Virus record (IMG/VR): IMGVR_UViG_3300042923_000887
Span: 1 to 47,321 of that record
Strand: one strand, 5' to 3'
DNA from: a virus
Length of the DNA: 47,321 bases
This document shows positions 780 through 47,150 of the stretch, in pieces (the first letter of the stretch is position 1; each line of letters opens with the position of its first letter). Both the position numbers and the translations under genes were made by a program. Below the pieces are notes generated by a model. The model had not been told where the DNA came from, searched no databases, and was given only the letters and a program-made list of their open reading frames with translations.

Positions 780-2240
780 TCAATTAAATCCGAACCAAAT
801 AGAACCATCGGGATTGCGCTTTGAGATGATCTTTAATCCGGTAGACAGCACAGCTTGCCGGCGCTGCTCGAAGGTTGTCGCCGCAAGTATTTGGCCGACA
901 TCAATGTCGGGCTTTTTTGTTTGCGCTGCATTATGAAGAGAAGCAGTGGTAGCGTTGATATCGTTTATTTCTCTTGCCAGATCCTTTAACTTACTTTGGC
1001 TTGCGGCTTCATCCAGTAGTCCGTCTGTAAACCATTGCAGGATAGTTGCCCGCTGCTGTTCGGCCTTCTTGCGCTTTACGGAGAGATCAACGATCTCGGC
1101 GGCGTAATCTCTTATGTCCGTCTCTTGCATATAGTCAGCAATAGTAGCTTGCCCGCTGGCAATATTCTCAAATGCCGACCAGACAGCATAATCCAACGTG
1201 TCGGATGGAATGCGGGTACGGTTGGTGCACTCCTTTCCCATTGTGCGATAGTCGGAGTTAACGACAGCTATGCATTGATAATAATAATAATGCACTGTAG
1301 GCTTTTTTTTACGATAACCTGGCATATGCCGGGAGATCATTCGCCGGCCGCAATGGGCGCAATACACAATACCCTGCAGTAAATACTCGTGCTGAGTATT
1401 TCGCTTTGCCGTGACTCTGTTGGCGGCTAATTGGCGCTGAGCCTCGTCAAATTCTTCTCTAGTAAAAATCGCTGGGATCTTGATCAAGACTTGTTCCTCT
1501 TTTGGGTTGTCCATGACATCACGAGTCCGCTGTCCGGTCTTTTTGGTCTTTTGCTGGAATTGCCAATAATCTCCCGTGTACATTTCTTTGGTTAACCAAT
1601 TGTTTATTGTTTTTTGACACACAGAGACGCCGATGCTGTGCAACTCTTTTTGAATGCGATACGTGCCCATTTTGTCCTGAACCAATAATTTACGGGCATA
1701 TCGCATAATTGCCGCTTGTTTTTCATCAATAATAAACATACTATTGGCAGCATCCCATCCATATCCGAAGGGGCGGCTATTAAAAATTATCTTGCCAGCA
1801 TTAGCTTTTGAACGTTTCCCTCTAACAGTCCGTTCACGGATTTTATTTTTTTCGTACTCGGATATAGCGCCGCGCATAACAAAGAACAATCGCCCTTCGG
1901 GGCTGGCATCGAAGTCCCCGGTTACGAAATGAAGCGGTAGTTTGTGGGTTTTCTCAATTTCATCAGCTACCAGCAACTGTACGTTCAGTGAGCGGCTGAA
2001 TCGGTCAGGATCGTAAATCATTACGCCCTTGACGAGTTTGTTCTGCATATCGTCTCGAAGTTGATTAAGCGCTGGCCGGTCAAGAAACTCACCGCTGGCA
2101 CCTTCGTCTTCAACGTATTCACGGATATCATAGATACCCATAGCGTTTAATTTGTCCTGGCAGCTCCGCAATTGGTCAGGCAGTGAATAGCCTTTCTTTG
2201 CCTGGTCTTCTGTGCTGACACGACAGTAGATAGCATACAT
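780..2240 (-). CDS. int: Large serine recombinase (site-specific integrase)
   Basis: This 486-residue protein would catalyse phage integration between attP and attB through a Ser-linked DNA intermediate. The N-terminal resolvase domain (about residues 1-145) starts MYAIYCRVSTEDQ, with the catalytic Ser at residue 9. The central Recombinase domain follows, and a zinc beta-ribbon begins YCAHCGRRM and includes later Cys residues. The C-terminal part has the charged, probably coiled-coil segment typical of large serine integrases. The start at 2240 is preferred because TTAGGAGATAATGCC precedes it; an in-frame TTG at 2270 is the alternative. It is the outermost clear phage gene, marking the left end of the prophage. 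Family assignment is secure; the target site is unknown. Confidence 0.95.
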   Translation of the reverse strand: MYAIYCRVSTEDQAKKGYSLPDQLRSCQDKLNAMGIYDIREYVEDEGASGEFLDRPALNQLRDDMQNKLVKGVMIYDPDRFSRSLNVQLLVADEIEKTHKLPLHFVTGDFDASPEGRLFFVMRGAISEYEKNKIRERTVRGKRSKANAGKIIFNSRPFGYGWDAANSMFIIDEKQAAIMRYARKLLVQDKMGTYRIQKELHSIGVSVCQKTINNWLTKEMYTGDYWQFQQKTKKTGQRTRDVMDNPKEEQVLIKIPAIFTREEFDEAQRQLAANRVTAKRNTQHEYLLQGIVYCAHCGRRMISRHMPGYRKKKPTVHYYYYQCIAVVNSDYRTMGKECTNRTRIPSDTLDYAVWSAFENIASGQATIADYMQETDIRDYAAEIVDLSVKRKKAEQQRATILQWFTDGLLDEAASQSKLKDLAREINDINATTASLHNAAQTKKPDIDVGQILAATTFEQRRQAVLSTGLKIISKRNPDGSIWFGFN

Positions 2241-2260
2241 GGCATTATCTCCTAATTTTA

Positions 2261-2282
2261 CTGCCCTCAATTTTGAGGGCAG
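2261..2282. repeat. Perfect 10-bp-arm inverted repeat between the recombinase and ImmA genes
   Basis: CTGCCCTCAA at 2261-2270 is followed by TT and by its exact reverse complement at 2273-2282. It lies 20 bases upstream of the recombinase start and just after the stop of the ImmA gene at 2296. No U-run follows on the minus strand, so it may be an operator rather than a terminator. A close copy of 17 of 18 bases (4582-4599) occurs inside the rha gene. Confidence 0.6.
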
Positions 2283-2295
2283 TTTCTCAGTTTAT

Positions 2296-3444
2296 TCAAA
2301 AATTACCGGCTTTCCAGTCCTTCTGGGGAGGCGTTGGCGGGATTAATCCCGGGGGAGGCGGAGGTAATGTTGCAGCGACCTGGGCCTGAGCGGATTCTAT
2401 TTGCTTTTTCTCTTCTTCCCATGGCAACAGAAGGTTTTGATCGTAAAATGTAGTTCTTGCTCCGCATTTTATGCAATACCTGGCGTTACCATCAGATATT
2501 GTTTCGCAACATTCAACATGGGTGTTACCGTTCCAATCTTCGACTTCTTTACCAGCACATTTATTTACAATAGTTGTGCCACATATTTTACATATATCAT
2601 AATCATGATTTATTTCTTCATTTTGGCATCGAGGACAATATATTGCTTTGCCATACTGAGTTAATGCCCATCCTGGGTAAATCATTAATTTCACATCCTC
2701 TTCAAAGTCATATATCGAACTTTGTCCGTTTCCCCATTTAAAAGAGTCACTTCCGCATATAGGACAGTATTTGGCGTTTTTAGATACAAAATAATAATGA
2801 CATTTAGTGCAGTGTTTTTGATAAATGAAATTATGAAATAGAGCTAAAACTTTTTGCTCAAGCTTAGAGAAAAAATTACTGCCATTTCCATATCTTTCTA
2901 CTGCAGTAGCTTTATACTCTGCTGCTTTTAGAGATATGGCACATCGCTCACGGATACTATTCGGATCTTCACATCGGATACGCAAAAGTATGACTTCAGG
3001 AGCCAATACTTTAGATGCAAAATAGTTGGCTTCTTTATCAAGAATATCAAGATCATTATCATTAAGGCCGCCTCTGCAAAGTCTGGTTTGCTCAAAATCT
3101 TTGAAATGATTTAAATAGATATGTCCGATTTCATGCATTAGGGTAAAACGAATTCTTTCATAAGGGAAAACGGTATCATTGTATGCAATTTTATATTTCC
3201 CTGTATTTTCATCGTAAAGCGAGTAGCCGTCTATAGATCCGGACGCCTCACAAATATCTTGAACATCGCAGCTTAATTTATTTGCATGAAAGCTAAATGT
3301 TCGCACAGAACATTGTAAATCTTGAATTATTTGAAATATAGCTTCTGTTGTTATTGGTAGATCTGATAGTTTATATTCCAGAAGAAAAGATAATGCTTTG
3401 TTAGTTGTATTTGAATAACGTGGTTTTGACGGAAAAACTGGCAT
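2296..3444 (-). CDS. immA: ImmA/IrrE-type metallopeptidase with C-terminal zinc ribbons
   Basis: This 382-residue protein probably cleaves or inactivates the neighbouring CI-like repressor, allowing induction. The zinc peptidase motif HEIGH is at residues 104-108, within a region starting RIRFTLMHEIGH, as in ImmA/IrrE (DUF955) proteins. Beyond residue about 200 there are three Cys-rich zinc-ribbon-like segments (CTKCHYY...CPICG; CPRCQ...CKICG; CCETI...CIKCG), followed by a proline-rich tail. This is much longer than a plain ImmA of about 130-180 residues. It lies directly downstream of the repressor gene with a 6-base gap, which is the standard ImmR-ImmA arrangement. The peptidase class is seen in the motif; the repressor target is inferred from context. 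Confidence 0.85.
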   Translation of the reverse strand: MPVFPSKPRYSNTTNKALSFLLEYKLSDLPITTEAIFQIIQDLQCSVRTFSFHANKLSCDVQDICEASGSIDGYSLYDENTGKYKIAYNDTVFPYERIRFTLMHEIGHIYLNHFKDFEQTRLCRGGLNDNDLDILDKEANYFASKVLAPEVILLRIRCEDPNSIRERCAISLKAAEYKATAVERYGNGSNFFSKLEQKVLALFHNFIYQKHCTKCHYYFVSKNAKYCPICGSDSFKWGNGQSSIYDFEEDVKLMIYPGWALTQYGKAIYCPRCQNEEINHDYDICKICGTTIVNKCAGKEVEDWNGNTHVECCETISDGNARYCIKCGARTTFYDQNLLLPWEEEKKQIESAQAQVAATLPPPPPGLIPPTPPQKDWKAGNF

Positions 3445-3450
3445 CAGGAA

Positions 3451-3801
3451 TTAATCCTCTTCTAACATTGATTTAATGAGTTTTTTTAGCAAGGCTTGTT
3501 TTTCTGGGTTTTTATCAAGACTTCTTCTGGCTAATGCTCTAACCTGGGGATCGTCGAGGACGGGGATCGAATTGTCGTGCAGGTTTTCATTGGGAATGTA
3601 ATCCTTTGAGTCGGATATTAATGCCTCAGAAAATATGCCTAATGCTGAGGCCAGTATATTTAAATTTTCAAGGCTCGGATTCCGCCTTCCGTTTTCAATA
3701 TCAGAAATAAAAGAAATTGAAAGCTTTGTGATCTCTGATAATTGTTTTAACGTTAAGCCATTATCTGTTCTTAGCTGTTTTATTTTTACGCCGATTTTCA
3801 T
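3451..3801 (-). CDS. CI-like XRE-family phage repressor
   Basis: This is a 116-residue DNA-binding protein with an N-terminal Cro/C1-type helix-turn-helix at about residues 5-60 (KIKQLRTDNGLTLKQLSEIT, SISFISDIENGRRNPSLENL). The C-terminal half is short and charged, as in ImmR-type repressors cleaved by ImmA. It is transcribed divergently from the Cro-like gene at 4039, with operator-like dyads between them, and would hold the lysogenic state. The ATG at 3801 has a GGCGAGGCG sequence upstream; an ATG at 3822 would add 7 residues. The TTTACGC motif also occurs inside its own 5' end at 3785-3791. Confidence 0.88.
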   Translation of the reverse strand: MKIGVKIKQLRTDNGLTLKQLSEITKLSISFISDIENGRRNPSLENLNILASALGIFSEALISDSKDYIPNENLHDNSIPVLDDPQVRALARRSLDKNPEKQALLKKLIKSMLEED

Positions 3802-3833
3802 AATTATCGCCTCGCCTTGCATTGTTTAGATAT

Positions 3834-5398: not shown

Positions 5399-5551
5399 AT
5401 GACCAGCAAAAAACAGCGCCAGTCATCCCGGCGGCGCAACGTCAGCCCTAACTACCGCGCGATGATGCGCACCAATACCAAGGTAATGCCGCCTGCCGTA
5501 CTGCAGGACATGCTCGGCCTGAGCGGCCGCAGAAAAATGATGGCGAGGTGA
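5399..5551 (+). CDS. Small basic hypothetical protein, 50 aa
   Basis: A near-ideal ribosome binding site, GGAAAGGAGGTGACACCC, precedes the ATG. The protein is strongly basic (MTSKKQRQSSRRRNVSPNY and a final RRKMMAR) and could bind nucleic acid. No family is recognised. Its end is 6 bases before the GTG start of the next gene. Confidence 0.65.
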   Translation: MTSKKQRQSSRRRNVSPNYRAMMRTNTKVMPPAVLQDMLGLSGRRKMMAR

Positions 5552-5557
5552 AATGCA

Positions 5558-5767
5558 GTGCGAGAGTTAGCCGTTACACTCACTTTTTATGATGAGGAAA
5601 TTGATTTGCTGCAGGCTAGTGCTGACGAAATGACGGCCTGGAGCGCTGCGCAAGTTCGCCCCAATACTTGGACGATTAAAATGATTGTCCGCGCCTATGC
5701 GTTGGTGAAAGCCAGGGATGAGGCAAAGCAGCGGGCAGAAAAAAGCGAGGTGATCCCATGCGAATAA
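5558..5767 (+). CDS. Hypothetical protein, 69 aa
   Basis: A GTG start follows GCGAGGTGAAATGCA. An ATG five bases upstream is in another frame and hits a stop at once, so GTG is the likely start. The protein has an acidic N-terminus and a helical, charged C-terminus (VKARDEAKQRAEKSE). It overlaps the next gene by 10 bases, suggesting translational coupling. No family is recognised. Confidence 0.65.
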   Translation: MRELAVTLTFYDEEIDLLQASADEMTAWSAAQVRPNTWTIKMIVRAYALVKARDEAKQRAEKSEVIPCE

Positions 5768-5943
5768 CAGCAGTCCCCCGAATCACGCCGCTGCTGCGGA
5801 TGTGCTACAACTGCCAACACGGCTGCAAGTCCCTGTCTCATCCGTCCTGCGCAACATGCCGCAAATATGCAAACTGGCAGGAGGTGTTGCGCGATGCCGT
5901 CAGCCGCAGCGGAAACAGCCCGCAAAATGGCCGTCCTGTATGA
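5758..5943 (+). CDS. Small Cys-rich (zinc-finger-like) protein, 61 aa
   Basis: The sequence CYNCQHGCKSLSHPSCATC contains five Cys residues, including two CxxC pairs, which suggests a small zinc-binding fold. The ATG at 5758 lies inside the end of the preceding gene, with GCGAGGTGATCCC upstream. It overlaps the next candidate gene (5894) by 50 bases in a different frame. Role unknown. Confidence 0.6.
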   Translation: MRITAVPRITPLLRMCYNCQHGCKSLSHPSCATCRKYANWQEVLRDAVSRSGNSPQNGRPV

Positions 5944-6094
5944 CCTGTTTTGCCGGCAGGCCAGCGATCCACAGCAGAAAATCTATTACGGTCGCAGATA
6001 CCGGTACTGGTCAGCCCGGGCAATCGTGCTGGAAAGGAGAGAACATGGATATCGTCATCGTTGTATCGGTTCTGGTACTGGCGTATCTGGTTAA
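5894..6094 (+). CDS. Small basic hypothetical protein, 66 aa, overlapping both neighbours
   Basis: The ATG at 5894 has a good site, CAGGAGGTGTTGCGCG. The middle of the product (MAVLYDLFCRQASDPQQ followed by a Tyr/Arg-rich stretch) looks like a real helical protein. The last 16 residues are read through the start of the next gene in another frame and look less natural. Overlaps of 50 bases on both sides make it less certain than its neighbours. Confidence 0.5.
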   Translation: MPSAAAETARKMAVLYDLFCRQASDPQQKIYYGRRYRYWSARAIVLERREHGYRHRCIGSGTGVSG

Positions 6095-6173
6095 TTGGTG
6101 CGTTGGACATAGGTCGGTCGATCTGATCAGGCTAGGGCACCTAGTCAGGGCAAATAAAAAACGCCGTGTTTAG
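6045..6173 (+). CDS. Small single-pass membrane protein, 42 aa
   Basis: The ATG at 6045 follows GGAAAGGAGAGAAC. Residues 3-19 (IVIVVSVLVLAYLVNWC) form a hydrophobic membrane segment and the tail is basic (RANKKRRV), so the C-terminus is probably cytoplasmic. Function unknown. The reading frame was chosen by the ribosome binding site and by the membrane segment. Confidence 0.6.
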   Translation: MDIVIVVSVLVLAYLVNWCVGHRSVDLIRLGHLVRANKKRRV

Positions 6174-6194
6174 CGGCAGAAAGGTGCGTTAACT

Positions 6195-6419
6195 ATGGGT
6201 TTTGTACCTGGATTTACCTGGCGTGATGGTTATGAATTCGCAGCGGACACTGACTTGTCGCAACGCTCAGTCGAGAAATGGGTCAACCTTATCGACGGAG
6301 CCAAAGTCCTAGCACTGGGAACCGGTAATGGATTCTTTGCCGGTGTTGCGGACCATATCTGGATCATGCTGCAAAACGTAGTTATCTGTGAGTCAGAGCA
6401 AGAAAAAAGCCGCCCATAG
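6195..6419 (+). CDS. Hypothetical protein, 74 aa
   Basis: The ATG follows GAAAGGTGCGTTAACT. The product is mixed and globular (MGFVPGFTWRDGYEFAAD...) with a moderately hydrophobic C-terminal half. No family is recognised. It ends about 100 bases before the next gene, in a stretch where I see only short, weak dyads. Confidence 0.6.
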   Translation: MGFVPGFTWRDGYEFAADTDLSQRSVEKWVNLIDGAKVLALGTGNGFFAGVADHIWIMLQNVVICESEQEKSRP

Positions 6420-6523
6420 AGAGCGGTTAATTAAAAAATACTCAACCAAATCATAACACAGTTTGTCCCGTATGTCTATTATCACCCGTTTTTATGCGGG
6501 GTATACACGAGGAGGCGAATTAA

Positions 6524-7363
6524 TTGAGTCCAACAACACCGGTTTTGAGCGTAGAGCGCGAAACCGCATATAGACAGCAGGAAGCTCCTATCAATAAACC
6601 GCCGCGGACAGCCACTTTTGCCGAGGCCATTGATTTGGGAATGCGTCCGCATGAAGCACTGACGAAGTGCACGCCCGCCACGACCAAGCAGATCACCAAA
6701 GAGCGATTGCAGATTTGCGCTAACGCCGGCTTCGATGTAAACGACATTGCCAAGGCATTTTGCGCAACCGTAGCTGCCACTTATTATTACTTGTCAAAGC
6801 ATAGAATTAAGCTAGTTACTAAAACGCAAAAATCGAAACTGGAGCCGGTAAAGGCGCAGGTTGAAAAGGAGCCGCACCAGGTAGAATCCCCGCAACAGTC
6901 TGAACCAATAGTGCCGGCATCCAAGTCGAATCCGGATCCGGTACCCGAGCAGCTGGCCGTGCTGCCGGAACCTGTGCCTGTACCTAAGGTATGGGCGGTA
7001 CCAGAACCCGTAACAATACCGGCACCGCCTGCTGAGCCCGAATTTGTCTGGTTTGATCGTCGCGAGAATCTGGACACCGGCGTGTTGATCAGAGAAAGTG
7101 GCAGCATTGAGATTAGTGCGGCCGTCAGCGCCGGCTTGACCAGTGATTTTGTGAAAATCGGCGTCAGCCGTGACGGTGCCACATTAAAAATCGTATTGGT
7201 CGATGATGGCTTGACCTATACCGGCAACGGCAATCGCCGCCGCCTTAATTTGAAAGCCCTGGCTCACGAACTGCAATGGGCGCAGATCACGCTGCCGGCG
7301 CGGTACATAGGCGCTTGGCAGGGCTCAGAATGGACAGGCCATCTGCAGGATCCATCAATATGA
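6524..7363 (+). CDS. Early protein with Pro-rich linker and a C-terminal domain shared with the gene at 12966
   Basis: The 279-residue protein starts with TTG after CGAGGAGGCGAATTAA. Residues about 30-95 look helical and may form a DNA-binding domain (ITKERLQICANAGFDVNDIA). Residues about 110-170 are a Pro/Glu/Val-rich linker. The last 95 residues form a beta-rich domain that ends ITLPARYIGAW. The protein at 12966-13772 ends with a similar layout and VPLPVRYRAEW, so I infer that the two share a domain family, perhaps a SpoVT/AbrB-like regulator fold. It starts a chain of four overlapping genes. Confidence 0.7.
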   Translation: MSPTTPVLSVERETAYRQQEAPINKPPRTATFAEAIDLGMRPHEALTKCTPATTKQITKERLQICANAGFDVNDIAKAFCATVAATYYYLSKHRIKLVTKTQKSKLEPVKAQVEKEPHQVESPQQSEPIVPASKSNPDPVPEQLAVLPEPVPVPKVWAVPEPVTIPAPPAEPEFVWFDRRENLDTGVLIRESGSIEISAAVSAGLTSDFVKIGVSRDGATLKIVLVDDGLTYTGNGNRRRLNLKALAHELQWAQITLPARYIGAWQGSEWTGHLQDPSI

Positions 7364-7530
7364 ACGCTGCCGCCAAAGAAATGCTGTGCCAGTCGCTGAC
7401 CGAGCGGCTGGCACGTGAGAAGCAGTACCTGATGTATGAGACCGACCCCGTGAAACGCGACCGCCGCATGCGGTACATAGCCGCTTTGGAACGGCGAGTT
7501 AATCAGATTGGGAAGGTGATGCCACAGTGA
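7360..7530 (+). CDS. Small helical hypothetical protein, 56 aa
   Basis: The ATG at 7360 overlaps the stop of the preceding gene (ATGA), and its own stop overlaps the GTG of the next (GTGA), so it sits in a coupled operon. The product is basic and helical (MNAAAKEMLCQSLTERLARE...RRMRYIAALERRVNQIG). An ATG-free longer frame from 7276 has no support. No family is recognised. Confidence 0.7.
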   Translation: MNAAAKEMLCQSLTERLAREKQYLMYETDPVKRDRRMRYIAALERRVNQIGKVMPQ

Positions 7531-8660
7531 AGAAAACAACTGACACCGTGAACGATATGCCTAAAACCGTACCAGAAACAGATGAATCTGTGAACGAAGC
7601 TGCTGAAATCGTGAGCGAAACCGATCTGGCCGTGATCGAACTGGAGCCAAGGACAAACCAATTAGTCCAAAACTTTGAATGGAACTTCGCCGAACTGAAA
7701 ACGTCTTTAGATCAAAAAACACAGAAATATGTCGGCCTGGTCGTGACCGAAGAAAACCTAAAGTCAATGGAGGACACGCAGAAAGAGGTTGCTGGCCTCC
7801 GGACAAAAATTGATGCCTTCCGGAAAAAAGTCAAGAAGCAACTCAATGAGCCCTATGAAAAATTCGAAGGCCAGATCAAAGAACTGTTGACCATTGTTGA
7901 AGCCGTTGAAAAACCGCTGCAGCAGCAAATCCTCTCCTATGAGGATGAACGCCGCCGGCTAAAGGAAGCCGAGCTGCGGGAATTCGGCCTAAAAACGGCG
8001 CTTAACCTTGGACTGCGAACCGAGTATAACACCCTTGTCATTGACACGAAGTGGACAAACCGCACGGCCAAGGATAGCACCGTTCGCAAAGAGATTGTTA
8101 CCGATATCGAGACCATGCTATGGCAACAGCGCCAGGCCGATGAAGCGGCCAAGCTACGCCGGCAGCGGTATGCGCTGATCGAGCAGCTGTGCGAAGTAAA
8201 TTCAAAAACGCTGCAGTTGAGTACTCCAGTTACACCGCTTGATGTTGCTACATCTGTTGAACATGCCACGCTGGCCGAGATCCCGGATATCATCATTGCT
8301 GAGTGCCAGAAACGGGCTGATATGGAGCGTAAAGCAGCTGAGGCGGTACAGGCGCGCATCGCAGCTGAAACTGCTGCCATACAGGAACCACTGCCACCAG
8401 TGGAGCCGGATCCTGGCCCACCAATGCCTCCGGTACTGCCCCCGCGGTCAGCTGATCCACCTATGCCGCCGGGATTTAGGCCGACATTGCCACCGGCATT
8501 TATGCCTCCGCCGCCGATGCCTGCAGCGCCCGAATTGTGGGACGCAACACTGCGTGTGATCGGCGTCACCGTTGCCCAAGCGGAGGCACTGAAGGTATAC
8601 ATGAACGGTCGTGGCATCCAATTTGAATTCAGCGGATATGCAAGGAGGGAATCATTTTGA
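7527..8660 (+). CDS. DUF1351 family coiled-coil phage protein
   Basis: This 377-residue protein with a GTG start has the DUF1351 hallmark region at about residues 48-150 (FEWNFAELKTSLDQKTQKY, then LRTKIDAFRKKVKKQLNEPY and a long helical stretch). Such genes commonly lie beside phage recombination genes in Firmicutes. A very proline-rich segment follows (about 290-340, PPMPPVLPPRSADPPMPPG), and then a short C-terminal region. Function is unknown; its place beside Gam, the Sak4-like ATPase and SSB suggests a recombination accessory role. It overlaps the genes on both sides by four bases. Confidence 0.8.
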   Translation: MKKTTDTVNDMPKTVPETDESVNEAAEIVSETDLAVIELEPRTNQLVQNFEWNFAELKTSLDQKTQKYVGLVVTEENLKSMEDTQKEVAGLRTKIDAFRKKVKKQLNEPYEKFEGQIKELLTIVEAVEKPLQQQILSYEDERRRLKEAELREFGLKTALNLGLRTEYNTLVIDTKWTNRTAKDSTVRKEIVTDIETMLWQQRQADEAAKLRRQRYALIEQLCEVNSKTLQLSTPVTPLDVATSVEHATLAEIPDIIIAECQKRADMERKAAEAVQARIAAETAAIQEPLPPVEPDPGPPMPPVLPPRSADPPMPPGFRPTLPPAFMPPPPMPAAPELWDATLRVIGVTVAQAEALKVYMNGRGIQFEFSGYARRESF

Positions 8661-21160: not shown

Positions 21161-21339
21161 ATGAAAATAATTAACAGGCCAGTTTATAAATGTGAATACT
21201 GCGGCAAAGAATTCTTATCCAGTAGGTGGGGGGGCAGCGGCATGAGCAACACTTTTGCAAGGCTAGGCCTATGAAGCCAGTTAAGCTTGAAAAATATCTT
21301 GGAATAGCGTTATTTGGCGATCTCAATACAGGAGGCTAA
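21161..21339 (+). pseudogene. Small zinc-finger gene frameshifted at a run of seven G
   Basis: The intact frame from ATG 21161 (after GGTAGGAGGCTAGCAGC) stops at 21274 after 37 residues (MKIINRPVYKCEYCGKEFLS...). After the G run at 21228-21234, the other frame reads RHEQHFCKARPMKPVKLEKY and ends with TAA at 21337-21339, two bases before the next gene. One extra G would join them into a CxxC...H...C zinc finger of about 59 residues. So the gene is either broken by a one-base loss, sequenced wrongly in the homopolymer, or expressed by slippage. Confidence 0.7.
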
Positions 21340-21340
21340 T

Positions 21341-21793
21341 ATGAACTACATACAGGAAGCTGAAAAACGGCTGAGGCACTATCGTGACCTTGAAAATAGC
21401 ATTGAACAAATGAACAGAGATATCGCAAGGATTGTGAGCCGATCAAGTCCCAGCGAATTAAACGCCTTGGCAATGGATGTTACCGGTATTCGCAGCAGCA
21501 AGGTTGATGAAGCCTATAATGTGCTGTTTGAGTTACAGACCTTAAGGGATTCTATCAATAGCACTACTGAGGAAATTGCTGATATAAAGGATATCCTTAA
21601 AGAAATCAGCCGGGAAAAAGATTGTCACCTTTATGGCAAGGTGCTGTATCTATGGTACGTGAAGCGAGCAGAGAAGGACGATATCGCCAGGGAGATCGGA
21701 TACACAGCGAGGCATGTCTATCGGATCAAGGATGAAGCTATCCGTAAGTTTGCAGTACGCATTTTAGGGATTAAGGCGCTGGACGCAATCTGA
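21341..21793 (+). CDS. ArpU/DUF1492-like late transcription regulator (sigma region 4-like)
   Basis: This 150-residue protein has a helical N-terminal two-thirds and a C-terminal helix-turn-helix at about 100-138: VLYLWYVKRAEKDDIAREIG then YTARHVYRIKDEAIRKF. This is the sigma region 4-like layout of ArpU/DUF1492 phage late regulators. AGGAGGCTAAT overlaps the stop of the zinc-finger remnant. It is the last gene before a non-coding region with a promoter-like element at 21846, the usual place for a late activator acting on the packaging and morphogenesis genes. Confidence 0.85.
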   Translation: MNYIQEAEKRLRHYRDLENSIEQMNRDIARIVSRSSPSELNALAMDVTGIRSSKVDEAYNVLFELQTLRDSINSTTEEIADIKDILKEISREKDCHLYGKVLYLWYVKRAEKDDIAREIGYTARHVYRIKDEAIRKFAVRILGIKALDAI

Positions 21794-21903: not shown

Positions 21904-22005
21904 TGTCGTTATATGTCGGAATTTGCGTACTGTATTTTAGCAGGGCAAGAGTCCCTTTTTGCCGAAGATTGTAGCCATGCGAGGTCCCTCCTTGCCGCAA
22001 ATAAT

Positions 22006-22032
22006 AACTTCGGGCCAAGTTGGCCCGAAGTT
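22006..22032. repeat. Perfect 27-bp palindrome before the nuclease-ATPase cassette
   Basis: Arms at 22006-22018 (AACTTCGGGCCAA) and 22020-22032 are exact inverted copies around a single G. The non-coding region 21794-22145 holds the promoter-like element at 21846, this palindrome and the promoter at 22058; I see no gene in it. The one-base centre fits a protein-binding site or a cruciform, or a terminator with part of the stem open, insulating the cassette. Confidence 0.6.
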
Positions 22033-22057
22033 ATATGGGGAATTTTTCGTATATTTG

Positions 22058-22086
22058 TTGTTTAATTAGATCTTATAATGTATAAT
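22058..22086 (+). promoter_or_regulatory. Sigma-A-type promoter of the nuclease-ATPase cassette
   Basis: TTGTTT at 22058-22063 and TATAAT at 22081-22086 are separated by 17 bases; a second TATAAT lies at 22074-22079. The consensus quality suggests expression in the lysogen by the host polymerase, unlike the surrounding late genes. Confidence 0.7.
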
Positions 22087-22145
22087 TGCACCAAAATCAA
22101 ACATCTATAACCCTCATTCATAGGCTGGAGAGGGGGATATATCAT

Positions 22146-23177
22146 ATGCCTTATAAGGTAAGTTCTTCCGAACAACTTAGGAAAAGAGCATCTGATACAG
22201 AAACAAAAGCATTACTATATTTAATGAATTTCCGTGACGACAGCGATGAAATTCATTATTTTATTGTTGACTTTTTTAATGATTTGACTGGGATGGATCG
22301 CTTCTCGTTTAAACTATGGGATTTGCAATCAAAAGGTACGGCTAATTCTTCTCCTAATGCAGTTGGAAAGGAGCTGGTGACACTTTTTAAGAATTACTGT
22401 AGTGATTTTGATTTTCACCAATATATATTATTTTTGGGTGGTGTGTCTAGCACCCTACGTATTGATCCCACAAAAGATATTTTTGACATTGGTAACGTAC
22501 GAAGCAAAGCCCTCACCCATTTGAAAACAGGACTAAAGGATGAGTGCAGGGCAAGAATATATATAGATGCGTCAACTGCCACTGACGATAATATTGATGA
22601 ATTTTTAAGCAAAGTATTGTTTGTGATAGATAACAAGAAGCCAAGCGAATATATAGAGTCTATTATAAAAATCCATCCTGGTATAATGCCGGATGAGCAC
22701 ATACTAAATGCGATTTTTAATGAAATAAGGGATAATCAGGCAAGCAAAAAAAATATAAATATGGTTGAAGGCATCACAATAGAAACGACCGACCAGGCAT
22801 TGAATTACTACAGACACTTAACAAATGGAGAAATAAAATTATTTGTCCTTGGTCGTATTATCAATCGCAATCCATTCGACGATGGTTGTCCATTACCATT
22901 TATTCCTATTTACAATCGGTTCCCTGATGAGAAAAAGACGGAAGCATTGGATGATTGTAAACTGGCATTATCGAGAGCATTATTTAACAAAAATTGTGCA
23001 GATAATTTTTGGCGGCTATTTAGTAATATCTATCATGCGATTACAGCTAACCCCGCTTATAGCGTAGAGGAAATCTATCAGGCTCTAGATGTTGCATTAA
23101 TGGCATCTTGCCCTGATTTTGATGTCCTTTCTTTGAAGTACTTTATTTCAGCAGTCAAGGAGGGGATAAAGGTATGA
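22146..23177 (+). CDS. Predicted Cap4/DUF4297-like nuclease, first gene of a candidate defence cassette
   Basis: I know no exact family for this 343-residue protein. The N-terminus reads like a PD-(D/E)xK nuclease of the Cap4/DUF4297 kind: a first acidic residue in ASDTETKALLYLM (Glu19), then VDFFNDLTGMD (Asp42 to Asp51) and KLWDLQSKG (Gln61, Lys63), matching D...QxK. The remaining 270 residues are helical and may be a sensor or partner-binding region. ATG at 22146 follows GAGAGGGGGATAT; the frame extends 20 residues upstream without a binding site. It overlaps the ATPase gene by ATGA. The DNA is AT-rich by eye compared with its surroundings, suggesting recent acquisition. Confidence 0.65.
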   Translation: MPYKVSSSEQLRKRASDTETKALLYLMNFRDDSDEIHYFIVDFFNDLTGMDRFSFKLWDLQSKGTANSSPNAVGKELVTLFKNYCSDFDFHQYILFLGGVSSTLRIDPTKDIFDIGNVRSKALTHLKTGLKDECRARIYIDASTATDDNIDEFLSKVLFVIDNKKPSEYIESIIKIHPGIMPDEHILNAIFNEIRDNQASKKNINMVEGITIETTDQALNYYRHLTNGEIKLFVLGRIINRNPFDDGCPLPFIPIYNRFPDEKKTEALDDCKLALSRALFNKNCADNFWRLFSNIYHAITANPAYSVEEIYQALDVALMASCPDFDVLSLKYFISAVKEGIKV

Positions 23178-24781
23178 TTATCAAACGTATAGCTGTAGGT
23201 AATAATAAAGAAGCTTATGTCGAGAATTCATTGAGAAATGGCATCAACATCATTTCTAGTGATGATAATAATAAGGGAAAGACTATCATTATCCAATCAA
23301 TGATGTACTGCTTGGGCAATGCGCCTGTGTTCCCTTCTTCTTTTGACTATAAAATGTATTTCTATTTTGTCGAATTCGCTCACAATGACTGTGATTATTC
23401 TATTTGCCGTAGAGGTGATACGTTTGTCATTCTTCATGAGCGCAACTTAATGTTCTTTGATAGTGTGTCCGAAATGAAACGCTATTGGACAAAAACCGTT
23501 TTCCCTTTACCTCAAATAATTAAGAATGATGTAAAACGTATCGTAGACCCCGAATTGTTTGTCCAGTTATATTTTGTTGGACAAGACAAAAAAGATACTT
23601 CCAATATCGCCAATAAAGGATTTTATTCAAAAGATGACTTTATTAATATGATATATACCTATGCGGGGTTTGGGGCAGCAGGGCTAACTCAAGAAGAAAT
23701 ATCACATGCAAAAGACCGTATAAGGGAGCTGAAGGAAGAAAAAAGAACACTACAAACCCAGCATAAAATATTGAAGTCCAACAATGTTTCATCAGCTTAT
23801 TTGAGCCAGTACAGCGATAGAGTGATATTGGAGAACAAGATAAAAAGTGTAGAAAAAGTAAAGGATCAGATTGCTGCTTTGCGGAATTCAAGAAATACCA
23901 CTATTAACCGAAAATTAAAGTACGAGGTCACTCTTAAAGAGTTGAATTCGTTGAATCGGACAATGAATAGTGGAGAATTAAGATGCTTGGATTGTGGCTC
24001 CGCTCATATTGGTTTTGCAACTGGAACTACTACATCGTATACTTTTGATGTATCTACCCCAGAAATACGCCGTCAAATTATCGACTCAATAAATGAGAAA
24101 ATTGCATCATATATCGAAGAAGTGGAACATATCACTTTCGATATAAATAAGGCCCAAGAACAATTACAACAAATGCTAACAGATGAAGATATATCACTGG
24201 AGTCAATAGTAATCCATAAACAATCCATTTTGGATGTATCTGGCGTAGAAATTCGTTTGTCCGAAATTGATGATGAAGTACAAAAATTATCTGATGCAAT
24301 GAAAACCAATGAAACAAACTCGTTAGAGCAAGTTGAAAATCAGAAAATGCTCTTATCTTCTATTCTTTATGAAATGAATTCCACTTATAGGCGAATTGAC
24401 CCAACGGGTACGCTTGTTTTTGATGGATTATTTACTAGACGTGATCAAGTTTTTTCAGGTAGCGAGGCAACCGAGTTTCATTTAGTCAAACTCTATGCGT
24501 TATCCGCAATTCTAAAACACTTATGTCCGATAATTGTGGATTCATTCAGAGCCGAAGATTTATCAACCGAGCGAGAGAACACAGTTATAGACTTGTTTTC
24601 TCATTTAGATAAACAGGTGATTTTTACTACTACGCTAAAAATCGAAGAAATAGGTAAATATCAACATATGAAAAACATCAATAATATTGACTACAGCAAA
24701 AAGGCTCCCAGCAAAATATTGAATACTGTGGCAGTTGTTGAATTTTCCGGATTACTAAAAAAGCTATCAATTAACATATAG
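23174..24781 (+). CDS. Rad50/SMC-like ABC ATPase with CxxC hook, second gene of the cassette
   Basis: This 535-residue protein has a P-loop-like DDNNKGKT at 30-37, where the first Gly of the usual motif is Asp. Two coiled-coil regions (about 170-260 and 295-400) flank CLDC at 271-274, a zinc-hook-like dimerisation point as in Rad50. The ABC signature SGSE is at 428-431, and the Walker B strand PIIVD at 452-456 is followed by SFRAED. This layout fits SMC-like ATPases of conflict systems such as Lamassu LmuB or ABC-3C. It is coupled to the nuclease gene, with CAAGGAGGGGATAAAGGT as binding site. The ATPase class is clear; a defence role is inferred. Confidence 0.75.
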   Translation: MIIKRIAVGNNKEAYVENSLRNGINIISSDDNNKGKTIIIQSMMYCLGNAPVFPSSFDYKMYFYFVEFAHNDCDYSICRRGDTFVILHERNLMFFDSVSEMKRYWTKTVFPLPQIIKNDVKRIVDPELFVQLYFVGQDKKDTSNIANKGFYSKDDFINMIYTYAGFGAAGLTQEEISHAKDRIRELKEEKRTLQTQHKILKSNNVSSAYLSQYSDRVILENKIKSVEKVKDQIAALRNSRNTTINRKLKYEVTLKELNSLNRTMNSGELRCLDCGSAHIGFATGTTTSYTFDVSTPEIRRQIIDSINEKIASYIEEVEHITFDINKAQEQLQQMLTDEDISLESIVIHKQSILDVSGVEIRLSEIDDEVQKLSDAMKTNETNSLEQVENQKMLLSSILYEMNSTYRRIDPTGTLVFDGLFTRRDQVFSGSEATEFHLVKLYALSAILKHLCPIIVDSFRAEDLSTERENTVIDLFSHLDKQVIFTTTLKIEEIGKYQHMKNINNIDYSKKAPSKILNTVAVVEFSGLLKKLSINI

Positions 24782-24796
24782 TTTTGGTTCGTTTTG

Positions 24797-24836
24797 ATGA
24801 GCAGGGTATGGCATAAATTTGCCGTATCCTGCTCAT
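24797..24836 (+). terminator. Long hairpin ending the nuclease-ATPase cassette
   Basis: Seventeen-base arms at 24797-24813 and 24820-24836 pair fully if two G-U pairs are allowed, with a 6-base loop, 16 bases after the ATPase stop. TGCTTTC follows. It probably closes the cassette transcript. From here to 25011 I see no convincing gene. Confidence 0.7.
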
Positions 24837-45996: not shown

Positions 45997-46022
45997 TTAT
46001 CTTACTTCAGCGAAAGTAAGTA

Positions 46023-47018
46023 TTAATTAAAATAATCATGCGCCTTATTCCAGCATAGTTGGCGGAAAAATTCTATAAGCATGGAAAAACTAGCAACTAA
46101 CAAAACATATTGAATATCTATTAATGGGAACAATTTATTACTAAAATTTTCGTAGGGTATTAAATATGTCGGCAATATTTTTTGTGCTAAAACAATAGAA
46201 ACAGTGTGACTAAGATATGCTCCATAAGTAGAATTCGATACTCGGTTAATAATATTAGAAGAATAATTCCATTTTTCAAAAGCCAAAAAAAGAAAAATTG
46301 CACTGGCAATAGTCAATATGCTTGTGTAATCAGAAAAATAAGGAAGATATGCTGCTGTATTCAAATTATATAGATAGTTTAAGTAACTGATTATTGCGGA
46401 TAGTAATAAGTAGCACGAAATTGCAAATTCAATTGAAATATTAATACCATATTTTCTAATATATGCGCCTTGGATATATAAAGTTATAAATAGTAATAAT
46501 CTTGATTGAAGTAAACCTGAAAATATTATATATGGAAATATAGATTGCGAGATATATAGAATAGTAAGTAATGTGATATGTTGACGTTTATTAATATTAC
46601 CAAGGAGTATGTTTAAAAAAGGGCTTAAAAGAACAACAAATAGAAACGGCCATATATACCACAAATGATAATATATCCCTTGGCATGTGAAAGCATCTAT
46701 AAGTTGTTGCAGTATGGAGCTTTTCATATATGTAACACAAAATATTAATATCCCAATAAAATATGTAATGAGAGTGATGGTTAACTTTATGACGTCTCTT
46801 TTGGATGATTTTGCAGTTGATGATCTAAAGTAACCGGTAATGAGTAAAAAAATTATTACTGCTACGCCTGCAAAACTTCGCATTGAATTAGCATAAAACC
46901 AATTTAATGAGCCTTGTATAAGTCCATTATTAACTACCAATCCTACACTTGTTGAGTGGATAACAACAACCATAATAAAGGACAAAATTCTTAGTAGTTG
47001 GATATTAGATTTTATCAT
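46023..47018 (-). CDS. Membrane acyltransferase (acyltransferase 3 / OafA-like)
   Basis: This 331-residue protein has about ten membrane segments. It begins IQLLRILSFIMVVVIHSTSV, with the membrane-embedded His of acyltransferase-3 proteins (R/H pattern), and contains YYHLWYIWPFLFVVLLSPFL and AYLSHTVSIVLAQKI. Such enzymes transfer acetyl groups to surface sugars. ATG at 47018 follows AAAGAAAGGAACTGTTGAT; an ATG at 47072 would add 18 polar residues. The DNA is strongly AT-rich by eye and lies opposite to the tail genes, as expected for a lysogenic-conversion gene. Confidence 0.88.
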   Translation of the reverse strand: MIKSNIQLLRILSFIMVVVIHSTSVGLVVNNGLIQGSLNWFYANSMRSFAGVAVIIFLLITGYFRSSTAKSSKRDVIKLTITLITYFIGILIFCVTYMKSSILQQLIDAFTCQGIYYHLWYIWPFLFVVLLSPFLNILLGNINKRQHITLLTILYISQSIFPYIIFSGLLQSRLLLFITLYIQGAYIRKYGINISIEFAISCYLLLSAIISYLNYLYNLNTAAYLPYFSDYTSILTIASAIFLFLAFEKWNYSSNIINRVSNSTYGAYLSHTVSIVLAQKILPTYLIPYENFSNKLFPLIDIQYVLLVASFSMLIEFFRQLCWNKAHDYFN

Positions 47019-47150
47019 ATCAACAGTTCCTTTCTTTTGTATGCGATAGCTAGAATTATTATAGTTCGACATGAATGCTACGAATCTTCTTTTATTTTGA
47101 GCCGAAGTTATAACTGTCCATTGCTTTAGACCCGGAAAGAGGTGATACTT

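Follow-up and report, generated by a model that had tools for sequence, protein, structure and literature searches.

A prophage-borne cassette of the catalogued candidate family PDC-M22 is probably a divergent two-gene Lamassu-like defence system

Two overlapping genes lodged between a late-regulator-like gene and the packaging genes of a phage raise the question of whether they serve the phage itself or are carried as a defence of the lysogen, and, in the latter case, whether they represent a known kind of system. The window, i.e. the whole stretch of DNA that was analysed, is the 47,321-nt (47.3-kb) virus record IMGVR_UViG_3300042923_000887, with the cassette region at 22058-24836. The record is a temperate phage, carrying a large serine recombinase, an IrrE-like protease whose gene adjoins a helix-turn-helix repressor-like gene, a Rha regulator, a portal and a tape measure. 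The recombinase, the IrrE-like peptidase (with zinc ribbons) and the repressor-like gene form a lysogeny module on the minus strand at 783-3822. Relatives of the phage are found in Sporomusaceae genomes, with terminase copies of 87%, 81% and 76% identity. The cassette, comprising gene A and gene B, is probably a divergent two-gene defence cassette of the Lamassu type (PDC-M22), in which protein B would sense unusual DNA and unleash the nuclease A, so protecting the lysogen.

The preliminary description of this DNA had placed an AT-rich cassette between a late regulator and the packaging genes, and this arrangement was confirmed, with GC of 0.358 in gene A and 0.348 in gene B, versus 0.50-0.52 in the phage backbone, and with a late-regulator-like gene (21314-21793) on one side and terS (25523) and the packaging genes on the other. 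The comparison of the slot upstream of terS covered the related Sporomusaceae prophages L059/L124 and L125, in which this DNA is occupied by other genes altogether, frequently AT-rich ones (GC 0.29-0.42), and the A-B pair is absent. Given a GC content of 0.35 within a backbone of 0.50-0.52, and a slot that is variable in related prophages, the cassette is cargo of a Sporomusaceae prophage. The stretch upstream of terS in L125 (reverse complement, 5428-8518) holds a HicB/HicA-like pair together with AT-rich unknown genes (216-416 aa, GC 0.29-0.35), and looks like a cargo hot spot.

The features of the cassette are collected in the table below. The two frames overlap by ATGA, as had been described. 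Of the promoter proposed earlier, the boxes themselves are present (TTGTTT at 22059-22064 and TATAAT at 22082-22087, separated by 17 bp), but the -35 box matches only 3/6 positions and the element does not by itself rise above chance; it is absent from the output of a consensus promoter scan, whose promoter-like matches were at approximately chance level. The strong upstream hairpin, with TTTTT approximately 9 bases past its stem and none directly after it, probably ends upstream transcription. The terminal hairpin of the preliminary description is real and likewise strong, though with no T-run directly behind it, and is the probable end of the cassette transcript.

Table. Coordinates of the cassette features within the window.
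Feature	Position	Strand	Basis
Upstream hairpin	22004..22034	.	14-bp stem, z -5.85
Possible promoter TTGTTT-17-TATAAT	22059..22087	+	Sequence; weak -35
Gene A, 343 aa, predicted LmuA/Cap4-like nuclease, PADLOC PDC-M22A	22146..23177	+	ATG 22146, stop 23177
Gene B, 535 aa, LmuB/Rad50-like ATPase with CxxC hook, PADLOC PDC-M22B	23174..24781	+	ATG 23174, stop 24781
Downstream hairpin	24799..24836	.	16-bp core stem, longer in predicted structure, z -8.55

A scan of GTDB species genomes with the alignment of B recovered 54 loci, spread over Bacillota, Pseudomonadota, Bacteroidota and other groups, with many in metagenome-assembled genomes. A gene-neighbourhood search for homologous pairs found A immediately upstream of B at all 53 testable loci, the remaining locus (L048) being left out of the count as it starts too near a contig edge, and most pairs overlap by 1-11 bases. 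The pairwise identities of A and B are correlated (r 0.88, versus a permutation maximum of 0.24); the two proteins co-diverge and are an obligate pair. Stand-alone copies of the pair were also found on a plasmid of Paenibacillus larvae (79-83% identity) and on one of Cytobacillus firmus (47-50% identity), and horizontal transfer is suggested by the presence of an approximately 80% identical copy in a different class of Bacillota. Gene A was present in just 2/398 genomes drawn from one phylum, including the genome used as centre, and the system is therefore rare. No conserved third gene was found in the flanks of the A-B loci or of the two plasmid copies, where the genes that recur encode transposases, resolvases and integrases, XRE regulators, and DNA methyltransferases and helicases; other defence candidates, such as PDC-S02 (2/133 neighbours), occur there as well, as do SEFIR/TIR genes. 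This distribution bears on the reading that the same machine serves as a module against mobile elements, its main natural target being rival plasmids or integrative elements within the host. Relatives of the pair do occur on plasmids and beside integrases and resolvases, and Lamassu/DdmABC targets plasmids as well as phages (PMC10586767); however, the sequence does not separate the targets, and the presence of the pair on a phage is at least equally compatible with superinfection exclusion; we regard a primarily anti-plasmid or anti-mobile-element role as improbable.

All four motifs noted earlier in protein B are present (DDNNKGKT at residues 30-37, CLDC at 271-274, SGSE at 428-431 and PIIVDSFRAED at 452-462), and the Walker A residues S29-N33 and G35-T37, Q137-D138, C271/C274, S428-G429, D456, R459, S464 and E468 are invariant across 52/52 relatives. 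The proposal that B is a Rad50/SMC-like ATPase was supported and could be made more specific, as B is a homologue of LmuB: PADLOC LmuB models match 50/52 of its relatives, its profile hits LmuB in the solved LmuAB-DNA complex, 9ux7 (E 1.1e-12), and hhalign against two-gene LmuB gives 98.3%. An AlphaFold model of B (pLDDT 82) likewise retrieved 9ux7_A first in Foldseek (E 3.3e-20), followed by LmuACB and Rad50/SMC heads. Residue 457, after the Walker B D456, is S/Y/C/F/A/H and never Glu in 52/52 relatives; the LmuB of 9ux7 has a 'DSF' Walker B aligned to that of B, and LmuB generally carries a Glu-to-Gln change in Walker B and may hydrolyse ATP poorly (PMC10586767). Because the Walker B glutamate is missing from all relatives, ATP hydrolysis by B is probably slow or absent, with ATP acting mainly as a clamp. 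The usual Asp-Glu is replaced over residues 456-468 by a conserved D456-x-[FY]-R459-x-[GE]-[DE]-x-S464-x-x-x-E468, in which position 462, being acidic, might assume some of the catalytic function. The nature of B also bears on whether the pair is a selfish addiction module or plain toxin control, in which a toxin A restrained by B would stabilise the element rather than defend its host. Two overlapping genes with a predicted nuclease, found on plasmids and other mobile elements, would suit such a module, but B, a large ATPase and a homologue of the LmuB sensor, is not an antitoxin, and the conservation of its Walker A, hook and signature implies that it senses actively, leaving this reading with a very small chance of being correct.

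Protein A carries E19, D46 and QSK at 61-63, as had been described. A loose E-D-QxK pattern arises in 13% of shuffles of this protein and, taken alone, is weak evidence of a nuclease; the motif is made credible by its conservation together with the fold. E19, Q61 and K63 are conserved in 50/50 relatives, and D42 and D46 in 49/49 of the residues present; conservation of these positions, like that of the motifs of B, greatly exceeds chance. The predicted structure (pLDDT 90, pTM 0.84) places E19 in a helix, strands at or next to D42 and D46, and Q61-S-K63 at the end of a strand, with a helical C-terminal half. Foldseek of this model against the PDB ranked LmuA first (9hr5, E 4.3e-6, probability 1.0; then 9nxx and 9ux7_C), followed by Cap4, HerA-DUF4297 and Hachiman. 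The superposition on LmuA is globally poor (TM approximately 0.3-0.44, rmsd 12-18 A), and the fold is therefore certain only in part. At the sequence level, PADLOC LmuA models matched 0/50 members, hhalign against an LmuA alignment of three sequences only gave a probability of 5%, and no PDB sequence relative was found; nor did viral structures match the model, or Pfam, NCBIfam and PHROGs return anything meaningful for A or B. On the predicted model, A is thus LmuA-like by fold only, without a detectable sequence link to LmuA, and the earlier assignment of a PD-(D/E)xK nuclease of the Cap4 type is supported by the fold match and the invariant motif. Gene A is broken at two loci in which gene B is open, as fragments approximately 1.4 kb apart in L024 (7343-9867) and as a split frame in L050 (8983-10004).

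Another reading is that A and B are a phage recombination or repair pair of the SbcCD or T4 gp46/47 kind, with B as Rad50/SbcC and A as a nuclease processing phage DNA ends. B is structurally like Rad50/SMC heads, but A is LmuA/Cap4-like and, with no Pfam match, is not the calcineurin-like phosphoesterase that partners the ATPase in Mre11-Rad50/SbcCD. As a stand-alone unit, the pair is also scattered over plasmids and the chromosomes of bacteria; it is absent from the slot in the related prophages compared, and had no relatives in 50,697 phage records or in viral contigs, the latter scanned with short peptide seeds that distant phage copies could escape. A repair role is accordingly considered highly improbable.

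Comparison with Lamassu, suggested in the preliminary description, held up through the homology of B to LmuB and the fold match of A to LmuA. A close likeness is to two-gene Lamassu LmuAB (PADLOC LmuA PDLC00239 with LmuB PDLC00254; 9ux7, a two-gene LmuAB-DNA complex), which shares a nuclease gene placed first, overlapping genes, an A protein of approximately 350 aa, a B protein of similar size (535 aa versus 562-565 aa), an E-D-QxK motif of similar spacing, the CxxC hook, a Q-D-K segment, matching folds for both proteins by Foldseek, and, in both 9ux7 and PADLOC LmuB, a Walker B Asp-Ser instead of Asp-Glu. A draw of 199 genomes contained three PADLOC two-gene Lamassu loci, with LmuA of 349-357 aa, LmuB of 565 aa, overlapping genes, and no third gene directly between or before them. 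The suggestion that a short first protein and a missing third gene define a distinct type was rejected on these loci, since ordinary two-gene Lamassu looks alike in both traits. What sets PDC-M22 apart is sequence divergence, above all of A, which is not identifiable as LmuA by sequence. B in turn has SDDNNKGKT as Walker A, SGSE and DSFR, where PADLOC LmuB has G-x-D-x-GKS, GGSN/RGSN and DSPNN. The cassette has an LmuB homologue with a replaced Walker B Glu (generally Gln in LmuB, PMC10586767, and Ser in two-gene LmuB), downstream of a protein with the fold of the LmuA effector, i.e. a Cap4/DUF4297-type nuclease with a helical C-terminal part, though superposing poorly. It was labelled Lamassu-like rather than filed flatly under Lamassu because A is not recognised by LmuA sequence models.

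Other systems share single components with the cassette. LmuACB, DdmABC and ABC-3C likewise combine an SMC/Rad50-like LmuB with a Cap4-type nuclease LmuA, but they include LmuC or a middle component, whereas no third gene is present in the window or conserved near any relative, and three-gene LmuB is longer (approximately 630-650 aa versus 535 aa). Cap4 of CBASS and DUF4297-HerA share the nuclease fold of A, but over only approximately 180-250 columns (approximately 220-250 for Cap4), and their partners are a cyclase or HerA, whereas that of A is an LmuB-like ATPase; neither a CD-NTase gene nor a SAVED domain accompanies the pair.

PADLOC annotated both proteins over their full length, A as PDC-M22A (E 1.8e-158) and B as PDC-M22B (E 1.8e-211). 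With both models matched in full and the genes adjacent and overlapping, the cassette is a phage-borne representative of this already catalogued candidate family, from which it differs only in being carried by a prophage. The description of PDC entries in PMC11811056 is that of candidates not yet published, and the literature searched contained no paper naming PDC-M22 and no antiphage test of it. A test of PDC-M63AB, which is likewise a PADLOC candidate from a prophage, revealed no activity (PMC12409345). The present cassette is real, well formed and probably functional for defence.

The present computation shows how A folds, that B is an LmuB homologue, that the pairing is obligate and the active-site residues are conserved, that no third gene is conserved alongside, and that the cassette sits in a cargo position. 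The mechanism leans on reviews of Lamassu, in which it was studied for LmuACB/DdmABC (PMC10586767, PMC12904381), and on PDB titles, such as that of 9hr5, an LmuA nuclease tetramer on DNA. B would dimerise through its ATP-binding heads and CxxC hook, and would bind ATP and abnormal DNA, such as the ends, hairpins or replication intermediates that an invader presents. In A, an N-terminal PD-(D/E)xK nuclease domain would be followed by a helical C-terminal region through which A docks on B and stays inactive until B engages its DNA target. A would then be released or oligomerise, and its cleavage of DNA would abort a second phage's infection of the lysogen, or a plasmid's entry. From this analogy we infer that the pair acts against phages, that DNA is the trigger, that A is released or oligomerises, and that the outcome is abortive. 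A more far-reaching version, which we consider rather doubtful, is that PDC-M22 is a separate Lamassu-like type, used by the phage for superinfection exclusion, whose nuclease has diverged so far that its sequence no longer resembles any LmuA, whose ATPase works as a non-hydrolysing DNA clamp by means of an Asp-Ser-Phe-Arg Walker B and atypical SDDNNKGKT P-loop, and whose trigger is unlike that of known Lamassu.

The result opens no new kind of system, and instead gives the PDC-M22 candidate a testable assignment as a divergent two-gene Lamassu present across several phyla, and identifies residues of the catalytic site, the hook and the ATP site as targets for mutation. Carriage of PDC-M22 by a phage, documented here for a cargo slot, is consistent with prophages equipping their hosts against competitors. 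At the right end of the window, an Acyltransferase_3 gene (46023-47072, minus strand) lies in the opposite orientation to the structural genes in a region of GC 0.29 (46001-47000); it is likely a second cargo gene, perhaps with a role in surface-sugar acylation and lysogenic conversion.
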